This document shows, piece after piece, positions 4,040 to 8,245 of a stretch of 34,676 bases of DNA. Position 1 is the stretch's first letter; each line of letters starts with the position of its first letter. Source of the DNA: Candidatus Flavonifractor merdipullorum (GTDB taxonomy: Bacteria; Bacillota; Clostridia; Oscillospirales; Oscillospiraceae); assembly GCA_019114165.1 (NCBI GenBank), contig DXGA01000004.1:1-34676 (forward strand). Direction: 5' to 3'. Under the pieces are notes generated by a model that searched no databases, had not been told where the DNA came from, and saw only the letters and a program-made list of their open reading frames with translations. A program made the translations under genes and the position numbers.

Positions 4040-5389
4040 TTACCCCCGATCCCGGATGGGCGTACCGGCGTTGCGTCCGGCCAGACCGGCCTGGATGCGG
4101 GCAATGGCCTCTTCCACGGTCTGGGTGAGCTGTTCGCCGGTGGTCATATCCTTGACGGCGGCCTTGTTCTGGGCGATCTCGTCCTCGCCCAGGAAGATCA
4201 CATAGGGGATGCCCAGCTTGTCGGCATAGCCGATCTTCTGCTTGAACTTCTTGTTCTCGGTGTAGAGCTGGGTGCGGATGCCCGCCTCCCGCAGGGCGGT
4301 GGCCAGGGAGATGGCGGGGGAGAGGTCCTCCGTCATGGGGAGGACCAGCACGTCGGCGGGGGCGGTGAGCAGTTCTTCGTTGAGGTACTTCTGCTCTTCC
4401 AGCACATAGAAAAGACGGGTCAGGCCAATGGAGATACCCACGCCGGGCAGTTGTTTATTGGTGTAATATTCCGCCAGGTTATCATATCTGCCGCCGGAGC
4501 AGATGGAACCGATCTCGGGGTGGTCCAGCATGGCGGTCTCGTAGACGGTGCCGGTGTAGTAGTCCAGGCCACGGGCAATGGTCAGATCCACCTTGAAGTG
4601 GTCGGCGGGCACGCCGAAGGCGGACAGGCAGCCCACCACGGTCTCCAGCTCGGAAATGCCCTGATCCAGCAGTGCATGCTTGCCCTTATAGGCAGCCAGG
4701 GCTTCCATAGGCGCCTCGGTGGACAGCAGGTCCAGCAGCTGACGGCCGGTCTCGGCGGGAACGGCAAATTCCTCGGTCAGGATGTTGAGCACCTTTTCAG
4801 GGCCGATCTTCTCCAGCTTGTCGATGGTGCGCATCACGTCGCCGGCGTGTTCCTCCAGACCCAGCAGGGCGAAAAGACCGTTGAGCACTTTACGGTTGTT
4901 CACCCGGATCTGGAAGCGGCGGAGGCCCAGGGTGGTGAACGCCTTATAGATGATGGCGGGGATCTCGGCCTCGTTGACAATGTCCAGCTTTCCGTCGCCG
5001 ATCACGTCGATGTCAGCCTGATAGAACTCACGGAAGCGGCCGCGCTGGGCGCGCTCACCGCGGTAGACCTTGCCGATCTGGAAGCGGCGGAAGGGGAAGG
5101 ACAGCTCGCCGGCGTGGAGGGCCACATACTTGGCCAGAGGGACGGTGAGGTCAAACCGGAGAGACAAATCGGTATCGCCCTTGGTGAAGCGGTAGATCTG
5201 CTTTTCGGTCTCGCCGCCGCCCTTGGCCAGCAGCACCTCGCTGGCCTCGATGAGGGGGGTGTCCAGACCGGTGAAGCCGTAGAGAGAATAGGTCCGGCGG
5301 AGGATCTCCACCATCCGGTCGAACTGGGCCTGACGGTCGGGCAGCAGTTCCATAAATCCGGAGAGCGTGCGGGGCTTGATTTGTGCCAT
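4040..5389 (-). CDS. hisS: Histidyl-tRNA synthetase
   Basis: MAQIKPRTLSGFMELLPDRQAQFDRMVEILRRTYSLYGFTGLDTPLIEASEVLLAKGGGETEKQIYRF...; GLDYYTGTVYE motif; T-box upstream. Confidence 0.96.
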   Translation of the reverse strand: MAQIKPRTLSGFMELLPDRQAQFDRMVEILRRTYSLYGFTGLDTPLIEASEVLLAKGGGETEKQIYRFTKGDTDLSLRFDLTVPLAKYVALHAGELSFPFRRFQIGKVYRGERAQRGRFREFYQADIDVIGDGKLDIVNEAEIPAIIYKAFTTLGLRRFQIRVNNRKVLNGLFALLGLEEHAGDVMRTIDKLEKIGPEKVLNILTEEFAVPAETGRQLLDLLSTEAPMEALAAYKGKHALLDQGISELETVVGCLSAFGVPADHFKVDLTIARGLDYYTGTVYETAMLDHPEIGSICSGGRYDNLAEYYTNKQLPGVGISIGLTRLFYVLEEQKYLNEELLTAPADVLVLPMTEDLSPAISLATALREAGIRTQLYTENKKFKQKIGYADKLGIPYVIFLGEDEIAQNKAAVKDMTTGEQLTQTVEEAIARIQAGLAGRNAGTPIRDRG

Positions 5390-5520: not shown

Positions 5521-5762
5521 TTCTCGTCCCTTGTCACGGGACGAGAACGCCTTGTTCTCGTGGTGCCACCCATGTTCGGTGCTCCTCTCTCCCAAAGAGC
5601 ACCCTTTCTGCTCCTGTTGCGGGGAGCTGCCGCGCCCGTCTCCGGGCCCGCTGGTAACGCCGTCTTCCCCGATCCCCTTCCGTAAGACCCTTCCAGCCGG
5701 TGAAGTCTCTCTCTGTCCGGGGGAAACCGGATACTCATGCGCCGTCATGGCGGTTTCGTTTC
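5517..5762 (-). promoter_or_regulatory. T-box riboswitch leader of hisS
   Basis: Minus strand ATGGGTGGCACCACGAGAA (5556-5573) followed by long stem GGCGTTCTCGTCCC/GGGACGAGAACGCC (5517-5551). Confidence 0.9.
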
Positions 5763-5791
5763 ATCTTATCCCAAATAGCGCAAAAAGTCAA
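5763..5791 (-). promoter_or_regulatory. Sigma-A-like promoter of the hisS leader
   Basis: TTGACT - 17 bp - TAAGAT on the minus strand. Confidence 0.7.
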
Positions 5792-5795
5792 CGCC

Positions 5796-5822
5796 CTTTC
5801 TCACCACTGGGGCGAAAAAGAG
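5796..5822. repeat. 27-bp direct repeat, left copy (candidate target-site duplication)
   Basis: CTTTCTCACCACTGGGGCGAAAAAGAG, identical to 6874-6900. Confidence 0.85.
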
Positions 5823-6873
5823 TGTAGAGGTACAATACATGTTGGACAGTTGAATAAAAAAGGATGAAGGATAAGGCCTCATCGGTTAAAGTTGAAGTTG
5901 CGGACAACAACTCAACGAGAGGGGGCCATATCCTTCATGAGCAAGAGTATAACACAGGACATGGCATATCGGCAATCCCTGATGAAGTACGCGGAGAAAT
6001 ATGGCGTCAGCCGAGCCAGTCGGAAGTACAACAAGAGCCGGTCGTACATATACTTCTGGAAGGCCAGGTGGGATGGGAGCGTGGCATCTCTGGCCTGCCA
6101 GTCTCGGCGGCCTCACAGCCATCCTAACCAGCATACGGAGGCAGAGCTGAAGCTGATCCGGGACATGCGCCGCCGCAATCCAAACCTGGGCATGGTGGAA
6201 CTGTGGCACCGGCTGCGGAAACGAGGTTATACCCGCCGCCCGGAGAGCCTGTTCCGGATTATGCGCAAGCTGGGGCTGTTTCCTGGGGCTGAGAAGAAGA
6301 AAGCATATAAACCCAAGCCTTATGAGCAGATGACCTATCCCGGCCAGCGGGTCCAGGTAGACGTGAAGGTGGTGCCCCGCAGGTGCATTGCGGACCCGGA
6401 GCTCCGCCTGTTCCAGTACACCGCCATTGATGAGTTCACACGTCTGCGCTTCCTGGCTGCCTATCCGGAACAGAGCACCTACTCCTCCGCCGACTTCCTG
6501 AAAAGGTTGTTCAAGTGGTATGCACGCCGGGGTATCCGGGTGGAATGTGTCCAGACAGACAATGGCTTTGAGTTTACCAACCGCTTTTCCAACAGCAGGC
6601 GGGATCTGCCCACCCTCTTTGAGACCGCCGCTGCCAGGCTGGGCATCCGCCACAAACTCATCCGTCCCTACACGCCCCGCCACAACGGAAAAGTGGAGCG
6701 CAGCCACCGGGAGGACCAGAGACGCTTTTACGCCTGCCACAGCTTCTACTCCCTGGATGACTTTGCAAAGCAGCTCGCCTTCCACAACCGCCGCTCCAAC
6801 AACTTCCCTATGAGGCCGCTTGGCTGGCGCTCTCCCTTAGAGTTCACCGTCCAATATGTTTGACAAACCTACA
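5823..6873 (+). mobile_element. IS481-like insertion sequence, about 1051 bp, with imperfect terminal inverted repeats
   Basis: Left end TGTAGAGGTACAATACATGTTGGACAGT; reverse complement of right end TGTAGGTTTGTCAAACATATTGGACGGT; one DDE transposase ORF; flanked by 27-bp direct repeats. Confidence 0.88.
5937..6863 (+). CDS. IS481/IS3-type DDE transposase with integrase core domain
   Basis: HTH-like N-terminus; DDE context QVDVKVV, VQTDNGFEF, YTPRHNGKVERSHREDQRRFY; ORF-track start 5892, likelier start MSKSITQ at 5937. Confidence 0.9.
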   Translation: MSKSITQDMAYRQSLMKYAEKYGVSRASRKYNKSRSYIYFWKARWDGSVASLACQSRRPHSHPNQHTEAELKLIRDMRRRNPNLGMVELWHRLRKRGYTRRPESLFRIMRKLGLFPGAEKKKAYKPKPYEQMTYPGQRVQVDVKVVPRRCIADPELRLFQYTAIDEFTRLRFLAAYPEQSTYSSADFLKRLFKWYARRGIRVECVQTDNGFEFTNRFSNSRRDLPTLFETAAARLGIRHKLIRPYTPRHNGKVERSHREDQRRFYACHSFYSLDDFAKQLAFHNRRSNNFPMRPLGWRSPLEFTVQYV

Positions 6874-6900
6874 CTTTCTCACCACTGGGGCGAAAAAGAG
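6874..6900. repeat. 27-bp direct repeat, right copy (candidate target-site duplication)
   Basis: CTTTCTCACCACTGGGGCGAAAAAGAG; contains the TGA stop (6879-6881) of the adjacent minus-strand CDS. Confidence 0.85.
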
Positions 6901-7787
6901 ATGGTTCCAGAGCCGGAAGAAGATCCCATGCCATCCTTTGCGTACGAGGCCGCTTCATTGGACGCATCACAAAGGGTCAGACCTGAGCTCGTCTCCAGCG
7001 TGGTATAAAGATGGATGGAACAGCTTTCCTGCTCCATATATGCCGACAGGTCCGCCTGATACCAAAGACGGGTATCCCCGTCGGGGGCATCCATGGCCGA
7101 CATATCCATGGCCTCCAGCGTGGCGCCGTTGTCATCCTTGACCAGCAGCGTCAGACGGGACACATCTTCCGCCGTGCGGACAGGTCCGTCTGTGTTGGGT
7201 ACCAAGGTCACATAGAGAACATTTTCTGCCTTTTGCTGCTCTGCCGTGGGACCCATCTCATCCAGATTCCACGACCAGATGCTGCTGCCCTCTATGGCCA
7301 GAATATTGTCCGGGTAAAGGGTATCCAGCGCCTCCTGACGGGCGCCTGCCGAGCTCTGCTCCACCACCACCGGCGTGAATTCCGCCGACGGCGACAGTTT
7401 CAGCGTACCCGACCAGGTCTTTCCGTCCGACACCATCTCCACCGACTGAGCGGTATTTTCCAGCGTCAGCAGATAACTGGTCCCAGCCACCACTTCCTTG
7501 GGCAGCACGCTGGCCGTCAGCACCAGTTCACCCTTCTGATAAGAGAGCTGGGCTTCCACCTTGGAAAAAAGACTCCCCTGTTCCGCAAGATCCTGCGTCA
7601 GACGGTTGCCCATTTCGGAAATGCTGTTTTGTAGATAGGCGCTCTGGCTGTCGATGTCCGTGGAAAGCTCCTCCACCGCGTGCTGAAGCTGTGCCACATC
7701 CTCCCGCAGGGAGAGGGTCATGGCGATCAGCACCGCCACCAACAGACAGAGTATGCCCACCAAAATACTGCGAATGTGCTTAGACAT
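6879..7787 (-). CDS. Hypothetical membrane-anchored protein with coiled coil
   Basis: MSKHIRSILVGILCLLVAVLIAMTLSLREDVAQLQHAVEELSTDIDSQ... ; N-terminal TM then coiled coil; start trimmed from ORF 6879..7958. Confidence 0.75.
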   Translation of the reverse strand: MSKHIRSILVGILCLLVAVLIAMTLSLREDVAQLQHAVEELSTDIDSQSAYLQNSISEMGNRLTQDLAEQGSLFSKVEAQLSYQKGELVLTASVLPKEVVAGTSYLLTLENTAQSVEMVSDGKTWSGTLKLSPSAEFTPVVVEQSSAGARQEALDTLYPDNILAIEGSSIWSWNLDEMGPTAEQQKAENVLYVTLVPNTDGPVRTAEDVSRLTLLVKDDNGATLEAMDMSAMDAPDGDTRLWYQADLSAYMEQESCSIHLYTTLETSSGLTLCDASNEAASYAKDGMGSSSGSGTISFSPQW

Positions 7788-7828
7788 AGGGTATTGCCTC
7801 CTGTGGAGCCAAAACCAAAGCCCCTTCC

Positions 7829-8245
7829 TCAGGCGGTGAAGGGCTTGGTCTTGGGATTGACGATATCGCGCCAGTCCAGGTCGCCCCGCTCCAGGCCGTG
7901 GATCAGCATCTCGGCCGTGGCCACGTTGGTGGCAAAGGGGACGCTGTACTGGTCGCACAGGCGGGTAATATAGTTGAGATCGTTGTCCAGATCATGGGAC
8001 TGGGGATCGGAGAAGAAGAGCACCATGTCGATCTCGTTATAGGCAATGCGCGCGCCGATCTGCTGGCTGCCGCCGTGGGCATGGGAGAGGAACAGGTGGA
8101 CCGGAAGGCCGGTGGCCTCCGAAACCAGACGCCCCGTGGTGCTGGTGGCGCAGAGGGTATGCTTGGACAGGATGCCGCAGTAGGCAATGCAGAACTGCAC
8201 CATCAGTTCTTTTTTACGGTCGTGGCTCAAAAGGGCGATATTCAT
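7829..8245 (-). CDS. mgsA: Methylglyoxal synthase
   Basis: 138 aa; MNIALLSHDRKKELMVQFCIAYCGIL...LCATSTTGRLVSEATGL...LSHAHGGSQQIGARIAYNEIDMVLFFSDP. Confidence 0.95.
   Translation of the reverse strand: MNIALLSHDRKKELMVQFCIAYCGILSKHTLCATSTTGRLVSEATGLPVHLFLSHAHGGSQQIGARIAYNEIDMVLFFSDPQSHDLDNDLNYITRLCDQYSVPFATNVATAEMLIHGLERGDLDWRDIVNPKTKPFTA

Follow-up and report, generated by a model that had tools for sequence, protein, structure and literature searches.

An insertion sequence (IS) in the genome of Candidatus Flavonifractor merdipullorum raises the question of why a small IS481-like element should be flanked by an exact direct repeat as long as 27 bp. It lies within a stretch of 34,676 nucleotides, here termed the window, and our results indicate that it is very probably an intact member of a widespread IS481-like subgroup whose transposase inserts directly upstream of sigma-A promoters. 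The copied target would be long because the family inserts behind promoters at a fixed distance, which leaves the adjacent gene with its promoter whole. Promoter-targeted, oriented insertion, which was absent from the original prediction for this locus, explains where the 27-bp repeat lies.

The element and its flanking repeat

The element occupies positions 5823–6873 on the forward strand (1,051 bp) and extends from TGTAG to CTACA, with corresponding boundaries in 44 copies. Its terminal inverted repeats, the left (IRL) at 5823–5850 on the forward strand and the right (IRR) at 6846–6873 on the reverse strand, are 28 bp long and, as had been described, imperfect, with 19 of 28 positions identical. 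The 27-mer CTTTCTCACCACTGGGGCGAAAAAGAG is present exactly at 5796–5822, on the side of the element that faces the hisS promoter, and again at 6874–6900, in agreement with the earlier claim of an intact element with exact 27-bp repeats. The only plausible gene is an intact ORF at 5937–6863 on the forward strand, encoding a transposase of 308 aa with a helix-turn-helix and an rve integrase core. The insertion had also been called recent on account of the identical repeats and intact ORF; both of these hold and a recent event is compatible with them. The draft genome, in 217 contigs, holds one other near-complete copy, which is only 87% identical to the window element.

Genomes of 84,980 species were scanned for relatives, yielding more than 400, and the analysis retained the 80 best; among these the nearest elements come from Oscillospirales including Flavonifractor, Intestinimonas and Ruminococcus. 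Both junctions are intact in 44 copies, the window copy included, and these carry 44 different flanking repeats of 24 bp (one copy), 25 bp (six), 26 bp (29, the mode) or 27 bp (eight); the complete genome of Ruminococcus bicirculans 80/3 contributes 12 of them. The original prediction had named two ways in which the repeat could be something other than a target-site duplication (TSD), namely that the 27-mer was part of the element or that it was already duplicated at the empty site. The 43 other intact copies carry 43 other repeats, which places the 27-mer outside the element, and a genome of the same genus, G006, in which the window flanks are joined and the promoter is unchanged, holds the 27-mer once (25/27 identical), which argues against prior duplication.

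Because other copies carry different repeats and a congener has a single-copy empty site, the 27-bp repeat is, on comparative grounds, a true TSD. The window sequence derives from a draft MAG, and this could favour a reading of the repeat as part of a longer element, a pre-existing duplication or an assembly artefact. However, that reading is almost certainly wrong, given the variety of repeats found at the same junctions, a dozen of them in a complete genome, and it is refuted by the empty site.

The element also carries conserved internal features. A -10-like TACAAT at 5831–5836 faces inwards in IRL, 8 nt from the tip, and a -35-like TTGACA at 6860–6865 faces outwards in IRR, also 8 nt from the tip. 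If abutted, the IRR and IRL ends would read TTGACA-N16/17-TACAAT, with N17 when one base lies between them, and the 8/8 spacing of TTGACA and TAYAAT from the respective tips is kept in 42 of the 44 copies. On the forward strand at 5864–5938 there is a conserved RNA hairpin, which spans the ribosome-binding region and whose 3' arm enters the transposase start codon. Compensatory changes occur in eight of its ten pairs among 15 relatives, and 91.9% of cells are paired against 80.8% in shuffled alignments, a value reached in none of 500 shuffles. One relative (L145/L035, in genome G235) is 1,401 bp long compared with 1,051 bp for the window element and has a duplicated left-end motif, with a TSD of 26 bp.

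Family placement of the transposase

The DDE integrase core that had been noted comprises D142, D208 and E254, and the IS481-like assignment was upheld. The best NCBIfam model is NF033577 (transpos_IS481), with 196.9 bits; this falls just short of the cutoff of 224, yet no other family model comes close, and the element shares the gross IS481 features of a length of about 1.05 kb, a single ORF and TGT...ACA inverted repeats. It differs in the spacing between the second aspartate (D2) and the glutamate, with 45 residues between D208 and E254 in place of the 34–35 of a DD(34/35)E motif. The latter spacing was found in five classical IS481 elements, from Rhodococcus, Agrobacterium, Moraxella, Acetobacter and Piscirickettsia, while it is 45 in the clade with 26-bp TSDs and 41–43 in a clade with 15-bp TSDs, making D2–E spacing a candidate determinant of specificity. 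Most IS481 elements in ISfinder generate 6-bp TSDs, within a range of 2–15 bp (PMC10045372), whereas those of the window subgroup are 24–27 bp and its promoter target is absent from the classical copies examined.

The proposed link to IS1202-type elements, in contrast, did not extend to membership. The IS1202 family comprises the groups IS1202, ISSeq2, ISTde1 and ISAjo2, the last of which targets dif/pdif sites and yields 5-bp TSDs (PMC10132070). Model NF033594 (ISNCY_2, ISNCY/IS1202-type) gives the window transposase 35.4 bits against a cutoff of 250, and in a tree the protein falls among 31 IS481-side rows, separated from 11 IS1202/ISNCY rows with a support of 100/100. Moreover, at 308 aa it is shorter than IS1202-type transposases, which have 394–507 aa with a beta-barrel and a C-terminal domain. 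Traits in common are the TGT ends, the glutamine at E+7 (Q261), which is nearly invariant in the window clade, the left-side target, the fixed orientation and the long TSD, which falls within the 16–28 bp of the IS1202 group (27–28 bp for IS1202 and ISSeq2, 16–17 bp for ISTde1-like elements). By sequence, then, the window element belongs with IS481 and outside the IS1202 clade. The suggestion of a little-described subgroup with long-stagger cleavage is supported, and this subgroup is widespread in Oscillospirales. Among solved structures, IS21 IstA is nearest in sequence and IstA and retroviral integrases are nearest in fold, and an AlphaFold model of only moderate quality (pLDDT 69, pTM 0.49) shows no more than an integrase-like fold.

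The hisS promoter as the target in the window

The left copy of the TSD is separated by 4 nt (5792–5795) from the -35 box of the hisS promoter on the reverse strand (TTGACT, 5786–5791), which is followed after 17 nt by the -10 box (TAAGAT, 5763–5768). The gene for histidine--tRNA ligase, hisS, lies at 4040–5389 on the same strand with an inferred start at 5389 (TIGR00442, 396 bits), and aspS is located downstream at 1113–2906 (NF001750, 693 bits). Between promoter and gene lies a T-box leader (RF00230) at 5534–5757 on the reverse strand, which begins at the expected transcription start, some 6 nt past the -10 box. No T-box is returned for the window at the Rfam gathering threshold, but the match is clear at the E-value threshold (cmscan, E=2.3e-11); this T-box is divergent and GC-rich and its 54.7 bits are well under the gathering score of 93. 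The position of the leader, together with conservation of the -35 and -10 boxes in seven same-genus genomes besides G006, provides independent confirmation of the target, and the hisS promoter is, on this evidence, the target of the window insertion. On the far side, the right copy of the TSD supplies the final residues and stop codon (..FSPQW*) of an ORF at 6879–7958 on the reverse strand, such that the insertion appears to have harmed neither neighbouring gene.

A promoter motif beside the target-site duplication

The arrangement at hisS recurs at most of the subgroup's insertions examined. Outside the TSD, on the IRL (transposase-5') side and read outwards from the element, the flanks carry the motif N4-TTGAC-N17-TATAAT. 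Flanks were scored with a crude consensus count against TTGACA-N16/18-TATAAT (maximum 12), and in the set examined first the left flanks reached at least 8 at a fixed position in 49 of 62 cases, compared with 3.5% of control positions on the same contigs, while 35 of the 62 reached at least 10, against 0.13% of control positions. To guard against circularity, a second set was collected with the IRL motif alone from 394 genomes of the order, with some flanks from an earlier genus search added and duplicates removed. Here 48 of 57 flanks scored at least 8, where 3.5% were expected (binomial P about 1e-60); the -35 box occurred solely at offsets 29–31 and the spacer was 17 bp in 43 of the 48. A TRTG extension upstream of the -10 box, which did not enter the score, was also enriched (T 0.73, T 0.73, G 0.72).

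The -35 box begins 4 nt beyond the TSD (TSD+4) in 32 of 34 cases, whether the TSD is 24, 25, 26 or 27 bp, and the promoter-proximal cut is thus fixed while the distal cut floats by about a base. The promoter lies on the left in 35 of the 44 TSD-bearing copies, in mirrored form on the right at TSD+4 in five, and on neither side in four, which corresponds to a 7:1 bias towards IRL facing the promoter. A recognisable promoter is absent at about 10–20% of insertions, and from both sides in about one in ten. Three further IS groups, taken from genomes of this order, gave no such promoter peak. A weak test for an ORF with a ribosome-binding site gave 23 of 42 downstream of the target promoter and 14 of 40 on the other side, and is given no weight here. 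The sample of the 26-bp clade is mostly from Oscillospirales, and almost all of the overall sample is from Bacillota.

Confusion of the target with the element's own end, which bears TTGACA, was also considered and was dropped because orientation and distance to the cut disagree. Among individual relatives, two at 52–55% identity (L155 and L156) have TSDs of 27 and 26 bp with no recognisable promoter on the left side. Another at 62% identity (L261, at G514:C85) carries a 14-bp direct repeat instead of one of about 26 bp, with a TATAAT at about the right distance, and a change of TSD class inside the clade is possible.

Distant relatives and the IS1202 family

Relatives with 15–16-bp TSDs and transposases of 370–396 aa show the -35 box at about offset 19, again TSD+4, at 11 of 12 insertions in three genomes. 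IS1202-family elements were sampled from one Paenibacillus replicon and from a further eleven genomes of Bacillota; they are 1.43–1.64 kb long, with transposases of about 450 aa that carry Q at E+7, and the Paenibacillus comparator scores 424 bits with NF033594 (cutoff 250). Their 27 distinct insertions have TSDs of 16–18 bp and all 27 adjoin a promoter, whose -35 box directly abuts the TSD (TSD+0) in 26, while 5% of control positions reach the same promoter score. The Bacillota IS1202-family copies examined are thus also promoter-targeted, at TSD+0 rather than the TSD+4 of the window subgroup. Classical IS481 copies on plasmids, which are single copies, had TSDs of 6–7 bp where readable and no promoter.

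A phylum-wide search for IS1202 elements via Pfam Mu-transpos_C was set aside, since the 40 loci examined lacked a convincing terminal inverted repeat or long TSD; we take these loci to be IS21 IstA-like. Neither a TSD nor a tip promoter was seen at two loci of Enterococcus 'ISNCY' copies, reached via a plasmid named in PMC10215258. These IS1202-type copies on Enterococcus plasmids (L401 and L402) have the tips TATCATTCG...TTGACA, and that of L402 adjoins the cfr(D) resistance gene.

A possible mechanism and its alternatives

As the comparison of sequences shows, one strand is cut upstream of the -35 box at a distance of 4 nt and the other 24–27 nt further upstream, with IRL nearly always facing the promoter, and repair duplicates roughly -41 to -66, which is the upstream-element region. 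The promoter thereby keeps its native sequence to about -66, and the flank on the far side retains a copy of its own. Instead of recognising the -35 DNA alone, the transpososome may be guided by the sigma-A RNA polymerase holoenzyme bound at the promoter, because the target spans the cut, the -35 box, TRTG and the -10 box, beyond the likely reach of a small transposase; this motif extent is the sole evidence from which polymerase involvement is inferred. The transpososome might attack upstream DNA that is left exposed, and do so from a single face, which would explain half-integer helical staggers of about 15–17 or about 26 bp, since TSDs of about 15.75 and 26.25 bp equal (n+1/2) x 10.5 and would place both cuts on the same face. 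That the TSD classes lie about one helical turn apart has been remarked earlier (PMC10045372).

Transposition probably proceeds via an excised circle, given that nearly all copies keep the promoter-like hexamers at their fixed distances from the tips, and the IRR–IRL junction would then constitute a strong transposase promoter. In the IS3 family (IS911, IS2), a -35 box in IRR and a -10 box in IRL are brought together into a promoter only by joining of the ends, and the window element has the same architecture, with the circle here predicted from sequence alone. The RNA hairpin over the start codon may hold basal translation of the transposase low.

The guidance step, and only that step, has a competing explanation in which one of the helix-turn-helix domains of the transposase reads promoter DNA, mainly the TTG of the -35 box, without RNA polymerase. 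This trinucleotide is the most conserved part of the target and the nearest to the cut, the mirrored orientation occurs in five of 44 insertions, and sequence resembling TTGACA is present in the ends of the element. Nevertheless, we consider this explanation rather unlikely, because the -10 box and TRTG are strongly conserved at a 17-bp spacing, about 25–38 bp from the nearer cut and 50–64 bp from the other, because a protein of 308 aa is unlikely to read that far, and because the target is common to very distantly related transposases. Much less probable still is the view that insertion is random and harmful elsewhere, such that only promoter-adjacent copies persist. Insertion behind promoters should indeed be nearly harmless, with the TSD of about 26 bp preserving promoter and upstream region, but purifying selection cannot account for the orientation bias or for a register precise to one nucleotide (TSD+4, with TSD+0 for IS1202 types), nor for the lack of any such pattern among the other IS families examined in this order.

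Targeting of promoters thus appears to us well founded, whereas a more general proposal is evenly poised. It holds that sigma-A RNA polymerase, when bound to a promoter, tethers a broad group of bacterial IS481/IS1202-type elements, with a fixed cut next to the -35 box and a second cut on the same face one or two extra turns away, giving quantised TSDs. This would be a bacterial counterpart of polymerase-guided retrotransposon integration that apparently evolved independently of TnGBS/ISLre2.

Relation to known systems

TnGBS, ISLre2 (p-MULT3) and ISKra4-group (p-MULT4) elements are established examples of promoter targeting, and the window subgroup shares with them oriented insertion at a fixed distance. 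For p-MULT elements, asymmetry of the inverted repeats is held to determine orientation (PMC3942029). These are Mutator-superfamily elements, unrelated to the Pfam rve/IS481 transposase of the window, and they have the promoter on the IR-right side and at a shorter distance. Given the difference in superfamily, promoter targeting by the window subgroup most likely has a second origin and is apparently convergent with that of the Mutator-type elements. A further comparison is with IS481EU elements of Trichomonas and other parabasalids, which have a related transposase and TSD classes of about 4, 15 and 25 bp; they differ in being eukaryotic, in showing several TSD classes within one family and in having no reported target (PMC10045372).

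No published promoter targeting by IS481 or IS1202 elements was found in the open-licence literature. In 2023, no target had been found for the long-TSD IS1202 members (PMC10132070), and the sorting of TSDs from IS481, IS1202 and IS481EU into classes near 5, 15 and 25 bp was left unexplained (PMC10045372). For the Bacillota members examined, we offer promoters, at single-nucleotide register, as the target of long-TSD IS1202 elements, and the question of TSD classes becomes directly testable because the IS481-like groups fix the -35-side cut while the other shifts by about one helical turn. Retention of a promoter intact to about -66 suggests how such elements could spread cheaply and, if RNA polymerase is the guide, their transposases could be used to map active promoters or to place DNA behind them.

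Other target preferences were encountered in a genome of the same order (G044). A 1.3-kb IS3-like family there has seven of seven copies (L316–L322) inside the loop of inverted repeats resembling rho-independent terminators, with flanks such as CCCTTATGG...CCATAAGGGATTTTTT, and shows apparent terminator targeting. A second IS3-like family, of 1.45 kb, has GTCAA on the left and a TTGAC-type sequence on the right in most of six copies (L310–L315), which suggests an inverted-repeat target of its own.
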